From IMG/VR virus record IMGVR_UViG_3300037502_002863, positions 1-38,189 of that record: DNA of 38,189 nucleotides; one strand, 5' to 3'. This stretch comes from a virus. The position numbers and the translations under genes were made by a program. Below, piece by piece: positions 3,101-38,189 of the stretch. The notes under the pieces are model-generated. The model saw only the letters and a program-made list of their open reading frames with translations. It was not told the DNA's origin and searched no databases. The first letter of the stretch is position 1. Each line of letters starts with the position of its first letter.

Positions 3101-3880
3101 TCAATTAGCTTCACAATCCACCCATTTCAAATTATTATATCGATCATAGAGCCAAGTGCCCTTTGGTAAAAAGCATTTACCTAATTCTGGATTGTTTTCA
3201 ACACGTATTTGAACCACGGCCCAAATTAACCAAACTAGATATGATACTACTATGACACTTATGCTCCAACATAATATCTTATACTGTATACGCTTTTTAC
3301 GTCTAGCCTTTGTTTTAGTTTGTTCGGCTTGTCTGCGCATTTCCATAGCAATAGCACCTGCTTGCTCCTTGCCTACCTTTTTCATCATTTCTTCTACATC
3401 AGTCCATAATGCTCCTAGTTCTGGAGGACTTTGATAGACCATGATCTCACGCAGTTCTTGGCTCATGTGTTCTAGCTGTTTTTTCAGTAGCACACGTTGT
3501 AGAGCACGTTTGCCTAGACTATCTTCGCCATGGTAAACTTCGTATTTGCTACGGCGTTCTTCTTCTTCAAATACTGCTAGACATTTGTAGTAGTTGTCAA
3601 AATATGTGCCTAGCTGTTGGCCGATTTCTGTATAGATATTAGTTGTGTCGCCGGATTTTTTGTTCAGTTCAATTACACGATTTCTCTCAGTAACATACTG
3701 ATTTTTTTCAGCGACAGTGGGTGATCGATCTCGAAATTTGTTATTGAACTGGTCGTCAAGGTCTTTGAGAACATCTTTAACGTCCCCTGCCGCTCCTTTG
3801 ATATCCTTGTAAAGTTTGCATCCTTCTTTTACAAGTTTGACTGCCCCGTTGGCTAGGGCAAACAGCGTTAATGGATCCAT
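3101..3880 (-). CDS. Helical protein with C-terminal membrane anchor
   Basis: I chose ATG 3880 (MDPLTLFALANGAVKLV) because GGGAG lies 6 nt upstream; the frame is open further but without a better start. The product has 259 residues. It is mostly charged helix, probably coiled coil across about 90-190, with a KKARRKK-like basic patch before one hydrophobic helix (about residues 202-225). A short C-terminal domain with two Cys follows. This suggests a helical domain on one side of the inner membrane and a small Cys-containing periplasmic tail. The family is unknown to me. The GGGAGCGAA leader is shared with genes at 14743 and 19073. Confidence 0.65.
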   Translation of the reverse strand: MDPLTLFALANGAVKLVKEGCKLYKDIKGAAGDVKDVLKDLDDQFNNKFRDRSPTVAEKNQYVTERNRVIELNKKSGDTTNIYTEIGQQLGTYFDNYYKCLAVFEEEERRSKYEVYHGEDSLGKRALQRVLLKKQLEHMSQELREIMVYQSPPELGALWTDVEEMMKKVGKEQAGAIAMEMRRQAEQTKTKARRKKRIQYKILCWSISVIVVSYLVWLIWAVVQIRVENNPELGKCFLPKGTWLYDRYNNLKWVDCEAN

Positions 3881-3921
3881 CTTCGCTCCCGATCCCACTG
3901 TTGTATTTACAAGTTAGTCAT

Positions 3922-3945
3922 AAAAATGGCTACCGAAGTAGCCAT
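3922..3945 (-). terminator. Rho-independent terminator after the tmRNA coding half
   Basis: On the minus strand, an 8-bp stem ATGGCTAC/GTAGCCAT with a TTCG tetraloop is followed by TTTTT. It lies about 38 nt after the tag stop codon and ends the tmRNA transcript before the 259-residue gene. Confidence 0.85.
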
Positions 3946-4110
3946 TGCTATTTTTGGTTACAAGGCATAACTGCCCCGGAGGTTAGGCTGCTAGAGCGTA
4001 GACCTCGTCATTAGCTGCGTTTGCAGTTATAGATTTGCTTGATTTACGGTCATCGCCTACCGTGCTGTCCACTCTGTTACTCTTTGCCCTGTCGAAACCT
4101 AGTCCGGCCC
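3946..4110 (-). ncRNA. ssrA: tmRNA coding piece (5' half of a permuted ssrA)
   Basis: Starting at 4110 the minus strand reads GGGCCGGACTAGGTTTCGAC, the typical 5' end and D-like region of tmRNA. A pseudoknot-like stem ACGGT/ACCGT (4063-4059 with 4050-4046) follows. The tag frame runs from GCA 4024 to TAA 3983 and encodes ANAANDEVYALAA, ending in the ALAA degron typical of tmRNA tags. The seven acceptor bases (4110-4104) pair fully with CCGGTCC at 4400-4394. Those bases lie upstream in the same transcript, so the gene is circularly permuted. Pair 3 is G:U, the alanyl-tRNA synthetase determinant. The mature 3' end of this piece is not determined. Confidence 0.92.
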
Positions 4111-4122
4111 ATCATAAAAAGA

Positions 4123-4377
4123 CTACTTGATGTATTTGTTAATAATCTTAATGCCAAGATATGTAGTTAGTACAGTGAATATCATTTTATAAACTGTGAT
4201 CCAATCTGTAGCACTATCTATTACTACTTTGATTGGTCCTGCTTCAATAGAATCTGCACTACTAATTCTTACATTACCATTGAAGAAGTGCCAGTTAATT
4301 AAATCAACAGCGTATTCATACATAAATGTTGATACCACTGCGATCAATATTCCTGTAGCAAACCCTCTCCAATACAT
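4123..4377 (-). CDS. Small membrane protein nested between the tmRNA halves
   Basis: This protein has 84 residues. It begins MYWRGFATGILIAVVSTFM, a hydrophobic helix. The middle is polar (about residues 33-58), and a second hydrophobic helix follows near the end (MIFTVLTTYLGI). AAGGGG lies 5 nt before the ATG and begins only 3 nt after the encoded CCA end of the tmRNA acceptor half; the TAG stop is 12 nt before the first base of the coding half. The ORF therefore fills the intervening segment that is normally excised from a permuted tmRNA precursor. No family is recognised. Real translation is likely given the ribosome binding site and the clean membrane topology, but not proven. Confidence 0.7.
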   Translation of the reverse strand: MYWRGFATGILIAVVSTFMYEYAVDLINWHFFNGNVRISSADSIEAGPIKVVIDSATDWITVYKMIFTVLTTYLGIKIINKYIK

Positions 4378-4389
4378 CTAATCCCCTTA

Positions 4390-4450
4390 TGGTGGACCGG
4401 GCGGGAATCGAACCCGCGTCCAGAACACTTTTCTCTTTGCTTCATACAGC
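4390..4450 (-). ncRNA. ssrA: tmRNA acceptor piece (3' half of a permuted ssrA)
   Basis: The minus strand carries GGAC, then a T arm (stem GCGGG/CCCGC, loop TTCGATT), then CCGGTCC and an encoded ACCA ending at 4390. The acceptor strand pairs over 7 bp with the coding piece at 4110-4104. Further pairing with the coding piece is possible at GTTCTG (4426-4421) with CAGAGT (4076-4071), and at GCTGT (4450-4446) with ACAGC (4068-4064), matching helix P2. The 5' boundary near 4450 is estimated from that pairing. Confidence 0.9.
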
Positions 4451-4457
4451 AATACTT

Positions 4458-4532
4458 TTATAGTAAAATAAAAATCATTATTGTTACTATAATAACGAAT
4501 CCGACTAAAAACCTTGTTAAATCATCATTCAT
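4458..4532 (-). CDS. Possible 24-residue membrane peptide ahead of the tmRNA acceptor half
   Basis: ATG 4532 is preceded by AGGA at about 6 nt. The product has the polar start MNDDLTR and then an uninterrupted hydrophobic helix to the C-terminus (FLVGFVIIVTIMIFILL). It lies between the promoter at 4557-4585 and the acceptor piece, so it would be on the same primary transcript as the tmRNA. Very short, hence low confidence; the topology and ribosome binding site are the only support. Confidence 0.4.
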   Translation of the reverse strand: MNDDLTRFLVGFVIIVTIMIFILL

Positions 4533-4556
4533 ATAAATCCTATCATTTATTTACAC

Positions 4557-4585
4557 ACTTTAACATCAAAAAAAGATTTAGTCAA
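4557..4585 (-). promoter_or_regulatory. Promoter for the permuted tmRNA locus
   Basis: Minus strand TTGACT (4585-4580), 17-nt spacer, TAAAGT (4562-4557). With the terminator at 3922-3945 it defines a transcript of about 630 nt holding both tmRNA halves and the two small ORFs. Confidence 0.65.
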
Positions 4586-7698: not shown

Positions 7699-7779
7699 AT
7701 TGTTTTATTTGTAAAATAGCATATCTCTTACGCTGTGATGCAGTGCGGTAAATACTGTAGTTACAGAAAGGAGATCCAA

Positions 7780-9054
7780 ATGGATAAACGCACACAGAGA
7801 CAGCAAGCACTACAACAGGATTGGACCTTAAATCCTCGTTGGAATGGAGTAAAGAGACCATACACAGCAGAGGAAGTCGTTCGCTTACAAGGCTCAAGGA
7901 CTTTCCCAAATCAGTTTGCTGTTGAACAATCAAAAAAACTATGGCGTATGCTTCTAGAAGAAGATTATGTTCATACACTAGGTGCCCTAACAGGCATGCA
8001 GGCTTTACAACAAGTCAAAGCAGGACTCAAAGCAATTTACTTATCAGGATGGCAGGTAGCCGCAGATGCTAATCTAGCCGGAGATATGTATCCAGATCAA
8101 AGTTTGTATCCAGCAGACTCAGTGCCTGCGGTAGTAAGAAAAATAAACAATACATTCGCTCGTGCAGATCAGATCGCCTGGAGCGAAGGCAAAGAACAAG
8201 ACTTCTATGCACCCATTGTAGCGGATGCTGAAGCAGGTTTTGGTGGTGTATTAAATGCTTATGAACTAATGAAAGGGATGATAAATGCAGGAGCGGCCGG
8301 AGTACACTTCGAGGATCAACTTGCCTCCGCCAAGAAGTGTGGACATATGGGAGGAAAGGTCTTGGTACCTACAAAGGAAGCTGTCAACAAATTGGTTGCC
8401 GCTCGCCTTGCAGCTGACGTTATGGGTGTTCCTACCCTCGTTATTGCTCGCACTGATGCCGAAGCTGGTAATCTACTTACTAGTGATATTGATGATAATG
8501 ATAGGCCTTTTCTCACTGGCGAACGCACTGTGGAAGGCTTCCACAGAACAAGAAACGGAATTGATCAAGCAGTCAGTAGAGCCATCGCCTATGCCAATTA
8601 CGCCGACCTTGTCTGGTGCGAAACAGGAAAGCCTGATCTACAATTCGCAAGGGAATTTGCAGAGCGAGTACACAAGCACCATCCAGGTAAAATGTTAGCC
8701 TACAACTGCTCACCAAGTTTTAACTGGAAAAAGAATTTGGATGATGCCACTATTGCCAAGTTTCAGCGTGAACTAGGTGCTATGGGTTACAAGTTCCAAT
8801 TTATCACTTTAGCTGGATTTCATAATCTCAACAACGGCATGTTTGAATTAGCACACGGATATGCCCGTGAAGGTATGACTGCATTTGTTAAAATGCAGGA
8901 ACAAGAGTTCGCTAATGTTGCCATAGGGTTTGAAGCAGTTAAACATCAACGTGAAGTAGGTACAGGATATTTCGACCTGATTACTACTACTGTTGAAAAA
9001 GAAGCTTCAACACAGGCATTGAAAGGTAGCACAGAGGAAGAACAATTTCATTAA
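7780..9054 (+). CDS. aceA: Isocitrate lyase
   Basis: ATG 7780 has AAAGGAG at the right distance; an upstream in-frame ATG (7735) lacks one. The product has 424 residues and aligns by eye with E. coli AceA along its whole length. Visible landmarks are the catalytic KKCGHMGGK (C187), the Mg-binding [19 protein letters not shown], and the C-terminal GSTEE motif. It splits isocitrate into glyoxylate and succinate, the first step of the glyoxylate shunt. No malate synthase is in the window, so glyoxylate would be handled by the host. An alpha/beta hydrolase starts 1 nt after its stop. A full-length isocitrate lyase is unusual for a phage. GTAAATACT at about 7748 may be a late promoter variant. Confidence 0.95.
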
Positions 9055-22685: not shown

Positions 22686-22714
22686 ATTTTATACTGTCTG
22701 TCTCTGTGTGTCAA
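22686..22714 (-). promoter_or_regulatory. Promoter for hsp20-clpS
   Basis: Minus strand TTGACA (22714-22709), 17-nt spacer, TAAAAT (22691-22686). The -35 box overlaps the dnaK stop codon. AATAAATA follows at once and could serve as a T4-type late octamer, so both promoter types may be stacked. Confidence 0.65.
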
Positions 22715-24594
22715 GCAGCCTTAACTTCAGTAAATTCTGCATCCACAGTTTGGTTATCACTGGTTGACGCAGCCTTTTCTTTGTTTTGCTTTGCTTCTAA
22801 AATTGGTTGAGCAACTGAAAACAAATCCCCAAGTTTCTTATTAATCACTGACACATCGTCGCCTTTAATGGCTTCCTCTAATGCTGTGACTTCAGATTCA
22901 AATTTAGATCTATTTTCATCGGATAGTACATCTTTAACTTCTTCGTAGTCTTTCTTGAAGTTATAGAGTTGTGCTTCCGCACTATTACGTGCTTCAATAA
23001 GTTCACGCTGTTTTTTGTCAGCTTCAGCATTTGCTTCAGCTTCTGCGATCATCTTATCGATTTCTTCTTTGCTCAATCCACTATCACTCTTGATAGTGAT
23101 TTTATTTTCTTTTCCAGTGCCTTTGTCTTTAGCACTGATATTCATAATACCGTTAGCATCAATATCAAAGGTAACTTCGATTTGAGGCATTCCTCTACGT
23201 GCAGGAGGTATTCCTTCTAGATTAAATTCACCCAGTAGTTTGTTGTAATTGAATAGTTCACGCTCGCCTTGCCCAACTTTGATAGTGACTGCTGGCTGAT
23301 TATCTTCGGCTGTACTAAACACTTGACTTGCTTTGGTGGGGATAGTGGTATTCTTCTGAACAAGTTTAGTGAATACACCACCCATAGTTTCAATGCCTAA
23401 ACTCAAAGGTGTGACATCCAAAAGTAACACATCAGTACGGTCACCTGCAAGAACTGCACCTTGTATTGCAGCACCAACTGCCACAGCCTCATCTGGGTTC
23501 ACATCTTTGCGAGGTGCTTTGCCAAACAATTTCTCAACTTCTTCTTGTACCTTAGGCATACGTGTTTGGCCACCAACAAGAATAACTTCGTCAATATCTG
23601 AGGCATCCACACCTGCATCTTTCATAGCAATACGACAAGGTGCTAATGAACGATTAATAAGATCTTCTACAAGTGCTTCAAGTTTAGCACGAGTAAGTTT
23701 TGTGTTCATGTGTTTTGGACCAGTGGCATCTGCGGTTATGTATGGCAAATTAACGTCAGTGCTTGCAGAACTAGATAACTCTATCTTGGCTTTTTCTGCA
23801 CTATCTTTAAGGCGCTGTAATGCCAACATGTCGTTTTTAAGATCGATACCGTTTTCTTTCTTAAACTCGTCAACTAGATAATCCATGATACGTTGGTCAA
23901 AATCTTCACCGCCAAGGAATGTGTCACCATTAGTGCTTAAGACTTCAATTTGTTTGTCGCCGTCAACATTAGCAATTTCAATGATACTGATATCAAAAGT
24001 GCCACCGCCTAGATCATAAACAGCAACTTTGCGATCTTTTTTGTCTTGTTTGTCAACACCATAAGCCAATGCTGCTGCTGTTGGTTCATTGATAATACGT
24101 AGAACTTCAAGCCCAGCAATCTTACCTGCATCCTTAGTGGCCTGCCGTTGACTGTCGTTAAAGTATGCTGGTACTGTGATAACTGCTTGTGTAACATCTG
24201 TGCCAAGATAATCTTCAGCAGTTTTTTTCATTTTACGCAACACTTCTGCACTAATTTGCGGCGGTGCCAGTTCTTTACCTTGAGCACGTACCCATGCATC
24301 GCCATTTTTAGCCTCCATGATTTCGTATGGCATTAGGTCGATGTCTTTTTGTACAGCTTCTTCTTTAAACTTACGTCCAATTAGACGTTTGGATGCATAG
24401 ATTGTATTTTTAGGATTAGTTACTGCTTGGCGCTTAGCCGAAGCTCCAACTAGAATTTCTTCAGATGCATAAGCTACAATACTAGGTGTAGTTCTAGCAC
24501 CTTCAGAATTTTCAATAACCTTGGGATTTCCGTTTTCAATAACGGCTACGCATGAATTGGTGGTACCTAAATCGATACCGATTACTTTACTCAT
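22711..24594 (-). CDS. dnaK: Chaperone DnaK (Hsp70)
   Basis: This protein has 627 residues, full length for the family. ATP-site motifs: [13 protein letters not shown] at 6-18, [10 protein letters not shown] near 192, VGGQTRMP near 340. The substrate-binding domain contains [14 protein letters not shown] and the interdomain linker LLLDV. The helical lid and a C-terminal VDAEFTEV tail like that of bacterial DnaK follow. No dnaJ or grpE is in the window, so host co-chaperones would be used. Its leader repeats the ROSE-like hairpin found at hsp20. Virus-encoded complete DnaK is uncommon and may serve capsid folding or host protection; that role is inferred. Confidence 0.97.
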
Positions 24595-34460: not shown

Positions 34461-35561
34461 TTAAATGCTAGGAAGTTCGTCGTAGTCTAGTTCATCACTC
34501 ATAACACCAATAACATAATTGGTTGATTCGCTTTCTTGCAACGCAGTTTGTTTCTTACTTGTGTCACTATGTTTATTAAACCAAGGGATAGGTGTAGTTT
34601 TAGGAGCATGTTCCCAATACTTAATACCAATCTGTTTAAGCGCATCAAACGCAGTAAAGTCAACAAAGTCTTTTAGAATGTTGGCGTTAAGACCAATCAC
34701 AGGACCTAATTTAAACAAGTAATCTGCCCAACCCTTTTCTTCTGCAATAACATCTTTATAAATTTGAATGACTTCGTTTTGACACTCTTGTGCAATCTTA
34801 GCAAAACGAGGATCTTCCTTAACTACTTGGTTAATTATATAGGCTGTCCAGCCTTTATGCAATAGTTCATCTTGTAATATTAAACTAATAATGTTACCAT
34901 TTCCAATAAAGATTTTATTTTCAACCATTGCTAATGATGTAGCAAATGAAACCATAAAGCGGAATGCTTCTAATGCATAGCTGGCATGTAAGGCCAGGTA
35001 TATAGCTCTGATGTGTTCTTCTTCAGTAACCTTTTCGCCTAGCTCTTTACGACAATTAATTAAGTGTAGTCGGTCATAGTAACCGCCAACACTTGAGGCC
35101 ATGTCCACAATTTCTTGTGTATCATGTATAGTATTAAACACCTCTTTAGGCACATTGTAGATATTGCGAATGATATGACTGTAACTGCGACTATGGATGT
35201 TTGTTTCAAAAAATGTCCAATTATAAACTAAAGATTCTAACTCAGGTAAACTAACTACAGGCGTAAAAATTTGACTTGGTCCACGACCTTGTAAACTATC
35301 TAAGGCTGTTTGACGTAGTAGGTTACTGGTAAAAATATGTTTAACTGCATCACTTGCATCTTTAAAATCATTTGCGTCTTTACTGAGACTTATTTCTTCA
35401 GGTACCCAATAAAAGCCACGTGCAGTAGTTTCAAAATCTACGATCTTTTTATATTTTACTTCTTCAAAACGTTGTATAGTAACAGGCCCAGCAGGGTCAA
35501 GAAACATTTTACGATTTAGATAGTCTGTCTTTGTTTTTAAATTATATTGTTGTTTACTCAT
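34461..35561 (-). CDS. nrdB: Ribonucleoside-diphosphate reductase small subunit, class Ia
   Basis: This protein has 366 residues. The di-iron ligands and radical Tyr are found in LLRQTALDSLQG (D88), FFETNIHSRSYSH (E119, H123, Y127), and later ALEAFRF and LQDELLH. Relative to E. coli NrdB (E115, H118, Y122) there is one extra residue between the Glu and the His. The C-terminal tail (DELDYDELPSI) is the acidic peptide that docks to NrdA. It provides the Tyr radical for dNTP synthesis. ATG 35561 overlaps the aldolase stop (ATGA). Confidence 0.95.
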   Translation of the reverse strand: MSKQQYNLKTKTDYLNRKMFLDPAGPVTIQRFEEVKYKKIVDFETTARGFYWVPEEISLSKDANDFKDASDAVKHIFTSNLLRQTALDSLQGRGPSQIFTPVVSLPELESLVYNWTFFETNIHSRSYSHIIRNIYNVPKEVFNTIHDTQEIVDMASSVGGYYDRLHLINCRKELGEKVTEEEHIRAIYLALHASYALEAFRFMVSFATSLAMVENKIFIGNGNIISLILQDELLHKGWTAYIINQVVKEDPRFAKIAQECQNEVIQIYKDVIAEEKGWADYLFKLGPVIGLNANILKDFVDFTAFDALKQIGIKYWEHAPKTTPIPWFNKHSDTSKKQTALQESESTNYVIGVMSDELDYDELPSI

Positions 35562-36226
35562 TTATAGTTTCCTGATGCAAGTACAATCTTACAAATGTGT
35601 TCTAATCTTTCTATATGTTCATAGGCACGCCATGGACTGGTATCGATTGCAACAACTCCGTGCCCTTTGATGCCTACTATATCATAAGCAATATTTCCAT
35701 CTCTATCTAATTTTAAATTCTTATGACACTGGTCTGCAAGCTCTTGACTAATTGGTGGTACGTCTCCAACATTGGGTGCTACCTTTGTATAACGATTAAG
35801 TTCTGGAAAGTCATTACTAATCTTACTTAAATCAATACCGGCATGCATGGCAGCAATACAATATGTAGGATGTACATGAACAACTACTCGAACTTCATTT
35901 GCATGTTGCCCCATTTCTTTTTGTAGTCCAAAGTGAAGTGGAATTTCTCCACTTGGTTTTAACCCATCACTAATAGTAGTGTAAGGTAATTCTTTCCAAC
36001 CATATCGATCTGCTAATAACCCTGTACCAGTTTCATTCCATGTTAAGGGAGGCTTAATTAAAATCTTCTTAAACTGATCTGGTTGTAGAGTCTGCTTACG
36101 TACACCACTTGGTGTGATGTAGAAATGATCACGGTCGTGATGACGAATACTAACATTGCCATCACGGCTGGTAATCCAGTTACGCTTATAAGCGTCTACC
36201 ATTATATCACATATAGTTTCTAACAT
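35558..36226 (-). CDS. Class II aldolase/adducin family protein
   Basis: This protein has 222 residues, the usual size. It has SRDGNVSIR (20-28), ITPSGV (37-42), the catalytic Glu in PSGEIPLH (E94), and zinc ligands HVH (H117, H119) with GIKGHG (H189). Family members include L-fuculose-phosphate aldolase, ribulose-5-phosphate 4-epimerase and methylthioribulose dehydratase; which one is not clear by eye. It lies between nrdA and nrdB with overlaps on both sides, so it is made with the reductase. It may draw sugar phosphates into or out of the pentose pool used for nucleotides. Confidence 0.85.
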   Translation of the reverse strand: MLETICDIMVDAYKRNWITSRDGNVSIRHHDRDHFYITPSGVRKQTLQPDQFKKILIKPPLTWNETGTGLLADRYGWKELPYTTISDGLKPSGEIPLHFGLQKEMGQHANEVRVVVHVHPTYCIAAMHAGIDLSKISNDFPELNRYTKVAPNVGDVPPISQELADQCHKNLKLDRDGNIAYDIVGIKGHGVVAIDTSPWRAYEHIERLEHICKIVLASGNYK

Positions 36227-38189
36227 TATAGTTTACATGCCTCGCAGTCTTCATCCTCAAATACAACTTCTTGTACTTTAAATTCAGTTTCTGGATGATG
36301 ACCATTAGTTTTAATTTCTTCCTGTGCTTTAGACCCTTGCTTGTTTATTAAACTATAATAAAAAGTTTTGATTCCCCAGCTGTGTGCTTGCATCAAATTT
36401 TTAGCAATAAGTGTAGTAGGAACTTTGCGGCCTGGATAGTTTGCAGGATTGTAAAACGTATTTGTGCTAATTGATTGATCAACATAGGCTGCTAATACTG
36501 CCGCAGTCTTCAAATACCCGTCACAATCAGTTTGTTCCCACATCAATTGATATTTGTGTTTTAATCTATGGTATTCTGGAACAACCTGTGTAAATGATCC
36601 AGCTTTACTTTCTTTAGTTGAGATTAAACTCATTGGCATTTCTATTCCATTAGTACTATTAATAACAACACTACTAGACTCAACTGGAGCAATAGCCATA
36701 AGAGTAGCATTTCGTACACCATGTTGCTTCATCTCCTTACGTAAAGGTTCCCAGTCTAGCTCTGGTGTAAAATTTGCTAATTCATTTACACCATTAGAAC
36801 GTAGTTCCCATGGGAATATTCCCTGTCCATATCTAGTCTTAGCACTGTCTTTACATGGGCCTCTTTCTTTAGCTAACTCTACTGTGGCTTCTGTTAGGTA
36901 GTATGCTTGATGCTCCATCCAAGATTTAACGTCTGCCAGTGCTTCTTTTTCACCATATTTGAATCCACGTTTAGCATGCCAGTAGGCTAAGTTAGTAACA
37001 CCAATACCTAACGGTTGTATCTCATCGTTACTAAGTTTAGATTGTATTGATAAAAAGTCTTGGTAGTCCAATATATTGCAAAGGCTACGCTGAAGAATAC
37101 GACAAGCGCGACGCATGTCTTCCGGATTACGGAAAGCACCCCAATTGATTGATCCCAACGTGCATAGAGCGATACGACCAGTATCGTCATCCAAACGTTT
37201 AAAGGGCTTAGTAGGTAGTAGAATTTCACAGCAAAGGTTACTCTGATAAATGGTGTGATACTCAGGATCAAATGGTCCTTGGTTCATCACATTGTCAATA
37301 AACACAAGATAGATACGTCCTGTATCTGTTCTTTCTTTTAATATACCGCTTTTGAATACTTCCTCTGCACTCATAGTTTTCTTGCGTAGACCAGATTGCT
37401 TTTCATATTTCACATATAGTTGTTCAAATAATTCTGTGTTGTTGTAGAAGGCTTCGTACAAATCAGGTACTTCGTTAGGATCAAAGAAAGTAATGTTTTC
37501 TTTGTTTTTAAAACGACGCCAAAAGAACGCTGATAATACAACTCCGTAGTCCATGTGTCTAACGCGAGTTTCTTCAGTTCCTTGATTGTTTTTGAGGACA
37601 ATAAGATCGTCAAACTGGTGATGCCAAATAGGATAGAAAACTGTAGCAGATGCGTTTCTGATACCACCTTGTGAACAACTCCTTAAATCTCCAAACCACT
37701 TCTTTAGAAATGGGATCATTCCCGTGTGCATAATTTCACCGCCACGAATAGGTGATCCCAATGGACGTAGACGACCAATCTCTAAGCCAATGCCTGCTCG
37801 TTTGCTGGCATACTTGGCCATCATCTCACCAGAAGCAAATATGCTATCCAGATCGTCGTCACTGCGGATAAGAACACAACTAGAAAACTGTTTAGTAGGA
37901 GTCCCGAGCCCAGCCAGCACAGGTGTAGCAAGAGTAAACAAACCATCTGAAGCACAGTTGTAGTACTCTTTGATGTAACGCATACGGGCCGATCCAGGCT
38001 CTTCTTTATGGAATACAGTCGCGGCAGCAACCATATAACGAACTTGTGGTGTTTCATAAATTTCCTTTGTCGCACGATTGCGTACCAAGTACTTCTCAAT
38101 CAATTGCTCAATGGCCGCATAAGAATACTCTTCATCTTTCTCATGTTCTAACATGTCATTCATTTTATTCCAGTCGTCTTCACTATACC
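36226..38189 (-). CDS. nrdA: Ribonucleoside-diphosphate reductase large subunit (N-terminus outside window)
   Basis: The frame is open to the right edge (residues YSEDDWNKM precede the first internal Met), so about the first 100 residues, including any ATP cone, are missing. The visible 653 residues contain FSSCVLI (C225 of E. coli), SNLCCEI (N437, C439, E441), IALCTLGS (C462), the radical-transfer pair in TFYYSL (Y730/Y731) and a C-terminal C-E-A-C shuttle pair. All catalytic residues are present. It reduces NDPs to dNDPs with NrdB and the nearby glutaredoxin. The C-terminal pair is CxxC, closer together than in E. coli. Confidence 0.96.
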   Translation of the reverse strand, partial: YSEDDWNKMNDMLEHEKDEEYSYAAIEQLIEKYLVRNRATKEIYETPQVRYMVAAATVFHKEEPGSARMRYIKEYYNCASDGLFTLATPVLAGLGTPTKQFSSCVLIRSDDDLDSIFASGEMMAKYASKRAGIGLEIGRLRPLGSPIRGGEIMHTGMIPFLKKWFGDLRSCSQGGIRNASATVFYPIWHHQFDDLIVLKNNQGTEETRVRHMDYGVVLSAFFWRRFKNKENITFFDPNEVPDLYEAFYNNTELFEQLYVKYEKQSGLRKKTMSAEEVFKSGILKERTDTGRIYLVFIDNVMNQGPFDPEYHTIYQSNLCCEILLPTKPFKRLDDDTGRIALCTLGSINWGAFRNPEDMRRACRILQRSLCNILDYQDFLSIQSKLSNDEIQPLGIGVTNLAYWHAKRGFKYGEKEALADVKSWMEHQAYYLTEATVELAKERGPCKDSAKTRYGQGIFPWELRSNGVNELANFTPELDWEPLRKEMKQHGVRNATLMAIAPVESSSVVINSTNGIEMPMSLISTKESKAGSFTQVVPEYHRLKHKYQLMWEQTDCDGYLKTAAVLAAYVDQSISTNTFYNPANYPGRKVPTTLIAKNLMQAHSWGIKTFYYSLINKQGSKAQEEIKTNGHHPETEFKVQEVVFEDEDCEACKL

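Follow-up and report, generated by a model that had tools for sequence, protein, structure and literature searches.

The window, as we call the whole stretch of DNA analysed here, is 38,189 bases long and is a fragment of a large uncultured phage, taken from a virus record. Its minus strand carries a permuted, two-piece gene for tmRNA, the ribosome-rescue RNA, and an 84-codon open reading frame (ORF84) lies in the intervening sequence (IVS) between the two halves of that gene. The features, in the order in which they would be transcribed, are as follows.

4458..4532, minus strand: a 24-codon ORF for a mini membrane protein, just upstream of the acceptor half and belonging to the commonest IVS cargo family (hmmsearch of all window ORFs with the family-0 profile, E 1.7e-5)
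About 4390..4455, minus strand: tmRNA acceptor half, with T arm, 3' acceptor strand CCGGUCC, discriminator A and encoded CCA (RF04321 match; core identical in L076, L077 and L316)
4111..4389, minus strand: IVS, 279 nt, between the encoded CCA and the first acceptor-stem base of the coding half
4379..4389, minus strand: 5' arm of the IVS-end helix, UAAGGGGAUUA, containing the Shine-Dalgarno (SD) sequence and predicted to pair with 4125-4115 (pair probabilities 0.95-1.0; covariation in 21 IVSs)
4123..4377, minus strand: ORF84, gene for an 84-aa protein, probably a two-helix membrane protein (homologues in L316 and L317-L319; pN/pS 0.39 against L128)
4115..4125, minus strand: 3' arm of the IVS-end helix, UAGUCUUUUUA, its first three bases being the stop codon UAG (4125-4123); the conserved UGAU (4114-4111) comes next
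3946..4110, minus strand: tmRNA coding half, with the mature 5' G at 4110 and the tag ANAANDEVYALAA (RF04321 match; ORF 3983..4072 ends in ITANAANDEVYALAA)
3925..3946, minus strand: a hairpin and then a run of T where the coding half ends, possibly a terminator (read from the sequence; the scan placed a terminator on the plus strand, at a frequency near chance)
3101..3898, minus strand: gene for a 265-aa protein downstream of the tmRNA, the syntenic anchor in L076 and L077

The initial annotation had described a two-piece gene with the acceptor half before the coding half, and had called for a covariance search. The search bears the description out: the permuted tmRNA model (tmRNA_permuted, Rfam RF04321) matches positions 4451-3983 of the minus strand at 129.9 bits, the cut-off being 47. 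The encoded CCA ends at 4390. The acceptor stem forms across the two pieces with seven of seven pairs (GGGCCGG/CCGGUCC), followed by ACCA, and the G:U pair that had been seen at the third position is G3:U70, the alanine identity pair. The tag ANAANDEVYALAA, which is also encoded by L142 (ARAGORN), ends in ALAA, its stop codon ends at 3983, and its frame ends in a degradation signal. The interval measures 279 nt and not 275 nt as first claimed; the rest of the proposed anatomy agrees to within a few bases. The nearest clade-specific model, that of betaproteobacterial tmRNA (RF01850), gives 64.6 bits, below its cut-off of 84. ARAGORN reported no tmRNA in the window or in three relatives with long coding IVSs; several shorter relatives were detected. 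A group I intron with a homing endonuclease was considered and rejected, the T arm of the window being uninterrupted and the 84-aa ORF being without a Pfam or PHROG match. The window also encodes a DnaK-like protein (22711-24594), an isocitrate lyase-family protein (7735-9054), and nrdA and nrdB with a class II aldolase between them (34461-38163). The synteny with nrdA that the tmRNA shows in Stenotrophomonas phages was considered for the window and dropped, the two being 32 kb apart there. A megablast comparison of 25 kb of the window with isolate phages gave no matches.

The IVS starts with UAAGGGGAUUAG. Its SD, GGGG, begins 3 nt past the CCA, the ATG is at 4377, and ORF84 ends with a UAG at 4123, 12 nt ahead of the coding half; the ribosome binding site and the stop thus lie where they had been placed at the outset. 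In dinucleotide shuffles the frame stays open this far in 0.08% of cases (p = 0.0008). The dN/dS-type check that had been suggested gave a pN/pS of 0.39 against L128, consistent with purifying selection. The product is probably a two-helix membrane protein, and a low-confidence structure model agrees (helices 3-32 and 59-83; pLDDT 61.6).

A single-protein search with ORF84 against viral contigs and isolate phages found no homologue, and the free-standing homologues were detected only with a two-sequence alignment (window and L128). In a 338-kb contig (L128/L316), an ORF 54% identical to ORF84 lies inside the IVS of that phage's own tmRNA. In L317, L318, and L319 the homologue is a free-standing gene between nrdA and nrdB, and in L320-L322 a shorter relative lies between nrdA and isocitrate lyase. 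ORF84 is 52-57% identical to the IVS copy of L316 and the free-standing copies of L317-L319. The nrdA protein of the window shares 86-88% identity with those of L317-L319; the nrdA-nrdB gap of the window is occupied by the class II aldolase gene and not by an ORF84 homologue. Homologues outside the RNA context, together with purifying selection, qualify ORF84 as a genuine protein-coding gene at the level of sequence. In a five-sequence tree of these short proteins, L316 (IVS) groups with L318 (free-standing) with 93/93 support. Because the IVS copies do not group as one clade, ORF84 appears to have moved between locations, in one direction or the other, at least twice.

ORF84 was found in an IVS in two phages only, the window and L128/L316. 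In L076 and L077 the same permuted tmRNA lies upstream of the same 265-aa gene, but the IVSs are 62 and 72 nt long, non-coding, and free of an SD-led ORF; ORF84 is therefore not a fixed part of this tmRNA. The expectation that relatives keep an ORF between the halves holds in part: L128/L316 keeps the same ORF and many others carry other ORFs, whereas L076 and L077 carry none. A one-piece gene in related genomes, which had been named as evidence against the permuted reading, is not what these syntenic phages have.

The frequency of coding IVSs was estimated in a set of 81 distinct phage IVSs, drawn from a T-arm-type scan and from RF04321 matches in related records, and not selected for coding. 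An IVS was counted as coding, irrespective of its SD, when a start 7-18 nt after the CCA led into a frame of at least 20 codons that was open to the last 15 nt. This holds for 32 of the 81, as against a mean of 6.4 and a maximum of 13 in shuffles and 8 in the reverse-complemented interior, although three of the 32 (L120, L083, and L124) appear to be due to chance. Most IVSs are short and non-coding. An SD rule misses some plainly coding IVSs whose SDs are weaker (L104, L121, L143, L157, L192, and L200), and the fraction given here does without it. The SD-bearing IVSs of the unselected set are all open to the last 15 nt (24 of 24; 3.4 expected), as are 58 of 59 in an SD-selected set (8.6 expected), obtained with a pattern scan that selects the SD and not the open frame. 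That scan gave at least 119 stretches in viral contigs and one match in 84,980 bacterial and archaeal species genomes. The set enlarged with it holds 140 distinct IVSs and, among the matches listed, 82 SD-bearing ORFs, which single linkage sorts into 42 families, two of which are too short to be relied on, leaving about 40 unrelated cargo families.

The one match in the genome collection (L305, DKPS01000154.1) lies on a contig of 7.8 kb from a Saprospiraceae MAG, to which it may have been binned as phage DNA. Ten isolate phages were inspected; all have permuted tmRNAs, and their IVSs, 26-126 nt long, contain no SD-led ORF. L307-L311 and L313-L315 score over the RF04321 cut-off in isolate phage records without a tmRNA annotation: Xanthomonas phages X1, XacN1, and Rb1; Stenotrophomonas phages DLP_6 and QDWS359; Bordetella phage PHB04; Alcaligenes phage QDWS595; and Acinetobacter phage BUCT628. 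In QDWS359 an annotated CDS runs antisense over the permuted tmRNA. The IVS of L173, and also those of L117, L118, and L122, have a tRNA-like look or a T-arm-like hairpin.

The cargo comprises thioredoxin (WCGPC; PF00085, E 4e-21), membrane proteins of 22-27 residues, Cys-rich proteins, and many unknowns. Eleven families have synonymous differences, and their pN/pS values range from 0.15 to 0.68. No endonuclease was found in ten of the larger families searched. Cargo relatives outside IVSs form 39 hit groups in the loci collected, including thioredoxins in L148, L177, and L190 and a Cys-rich protein in Xanthomonas phage X1 (L307). In L076, L100, L162, L249, and L284 a cargo relative immediately precedes the acceptor half; such upstream genes occur where the IVS is empty or holds another gene. 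As far as these comparisons go, the IVS is a recurrently reused slot for small phage genes. On a tree of the tmRNA halves, with strict SD labels, coding status changes 20 times as against 20.8 in shuffles, the support of the tree being too weak for counting gains.

The SD and the stop of ORF84 are in opposite arms of one 11-bp helix that joins the ends of the IVS, a feature absent from the initial annotation. In the predicted ensemble the SD of the window is paired with a probability near 1, and the CCA is partly paired with the UGAU. Whether an IVS is coding or not, its first nucleotides can pair with those before the UGAU at 90-93% of 12 positions, compared with 38-63% in slid registers. For 21 chosen distinct coding arms, 96.5% of the cells are paired and the covariation is 0.529, compared with 0.23 in shuffled and at most 0.14 in slid arrangements. 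The end helix is weaker in coding IVSs (-6.6 kcal/mol, vs -10.2 in non-coding ones) and has twice as many G-U pairs, in a comparison that uses strict SD labels and weights related sequences equally; the weakness may simply follow from the need to hold an SD and sense codons. Most often (45 of the 60 IVSs with a stop near the end) the frame stops at the UGA of the UGAU, which leaves one base to the mature 5' end; the other near-end stops, that of the window included, are 9-13 bases before that end. With the helix arm translated as part of the frame, VSL, VFL, or VLL forms the C-terminus of many unrelated cargo proteins. In 22 of the 82 SD-bearing coding IVSs, about a quarter, the frame reaches the mature 5' end without meeting a stop. 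Stopless ORFs that cross the presumed RNase P site are found in L135, L154, L162, L205, L213, L215, L217, L251, and L293 (the MKYTALCPxCF family), and further ones in the IVSs of L087, L273, L277, and L302, and of L212 and L245.

Phage copies of permuted tmRNA (RF04321/RF01850) are known, for example in phages Melnitz and Mosig (PMC9004378). They share with the window the order of the halves, the tRNA-like domain, the tag, and an IVS between the CCA and the mature 5' end; they differ in that the IVSs of the isolate phages checked are short and without an SD-led ORF, whereas that of the window is a protein gene. Homing endonuclease genes are present in group I introns of tmRNA in 36 of 883 intron-form genes (PMC11915505), and these too are protein genes nested in a removable part of a tmRNA gene. 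However, group I introns are removed by splicing and the IVS by tRNA-type processing, and IVS cargo varies from phage to phage, with no endonuclease in the ten larger families. A tRNA-Ala gene is known in the IVS of a permuted tmRNA in one nominally archaeal MAG (PMC11915505); it is also a gene inside an IVS, but an RNA gene and a single case, while the phage IVSs are a widespread slot for protein genes. The literature also has one repeat in the IVS of a permuted tmRNA. No report of a protein gene in such an IVS was found in the open full-text literature, subscription papers and preprints being outside the scope of the search.

We consider it probable that a protein gene occupies the IVS of the permuted tmRNA and that one transcript serves as both tmRNA precursor and mRNA. 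The processing pathway of two-piece tmRNA is itself stated as probable (PMC3985003). The RNA would fold with the acceptor stem continued by the 11-bp IVS-end helix, and RNase P and 3'-end processing would release the IVS as a minimal message, with the SD at its 5' end and the stop at or near its 3' end. Both arms belong to the IVS, so its release by processing would in itself leave the SD paired; ribosomes would have to load on the nascent RNA, ahead of synthesis of the 3' arm, or else melt the weak helix. When translation terminates in the 3' arm, the ribosome would sit over the mature 5' end, and translation and maturation of one molecule should therefore exclude each other in time. On these geometric grounds competition between the two on a single molecule is likely. 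The coupling or competition of tmRNA maturation and ORF expression that had been proposed at the start is plausible from the anatomy, because the SD is paired in a helix that continues the acceptor stem and this helix is weaker in coding IVSs. It is possible, though we hold it only tentatively, that the IVS is an expression slot where processing and cargo translation control each other, with the SD hidden in the helix, translation delaying or permitting maturation, and a stopless released message becoming a substrate of its own tmRNA.

Two of the alternatives question the nested gene itself. ORF84 could be a frame that stayed open by chance in a long non-coding IVS, as most IVSs are short and non-coding, those of the syntenic L076 and L077 included. 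The free-standing homologues, the shuffle result, purifying selection, and the many parallel cases make this extremely improbable. Alternatively, the tmRNA of the window could be a decaying remnant, so that only the protein gene matters. A tmRNA of its own is dispensable for a phage, and many relatives are without a match, though most of those records are fragments. However, the window gene keeps its full acceptor stem with G3:U70, encoded CCA, T arm, and ALAA tag end, it scores far above the cut-off, and its acceptor-half core is identical in four phages; decay is thus highly unlikely.

The other two accept the nested gene but differ on what it does there. The cargo genes could be tolerated hitch-hikers, a discarded IVS being tolerant of insertions and the captured genes gaining transcription and a ready-made SD without any regulatory coupling. 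This comes close to an even chance in our judgment. Coding status is scattered over the weakly supported tmRNA tree as if at random, the cargo families have nothing obvious in common, and they also occur elsewhere in such phages, at several loci just upstream of the tmRNA. The fixed start and stop positions and the weaker end helix of the coding class suggest tuning instead, although hitch-hiking is still compatible with them. The nonstop message of arfA is cut by RNase III and is controlled by trans-translation. Stopless IVS cargo could follow the same logic, although arfA is not linked to the tmRNA gene: an IVS released by RNase P would be a nonstop mRNA whose product is tagged by the sister tmRNA and accumulates only if trans-translation fails. 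The frames that are open to the mature 5' end include the families around L135 (nine members) and L087 (four members), and their read-through ends are variable and look unconserved. But L134 has a stop where L252, of the same family, lacks one, the ORF of the window has its own stop, and no such cargo is recognisably ArfA. Feedback of this kind is accordingly unlikely.

A spacer regarded as discarded RNA proves to be a recurrent home for small phage genes, and the helix that directs tmRNA maturation itself contains their start and stop signals. An RNA-processing site can then become a gene slot, and dozens of overlooked small phage proteins are added. The spacers of permuted tmRNAs merit scanning for ORFs, ARAGORN being silent on the window and on the three relatives with long coding IVSs. 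The IVS loci also provide concrete constructs for asking whether translation and tmRNA maturation control each other.
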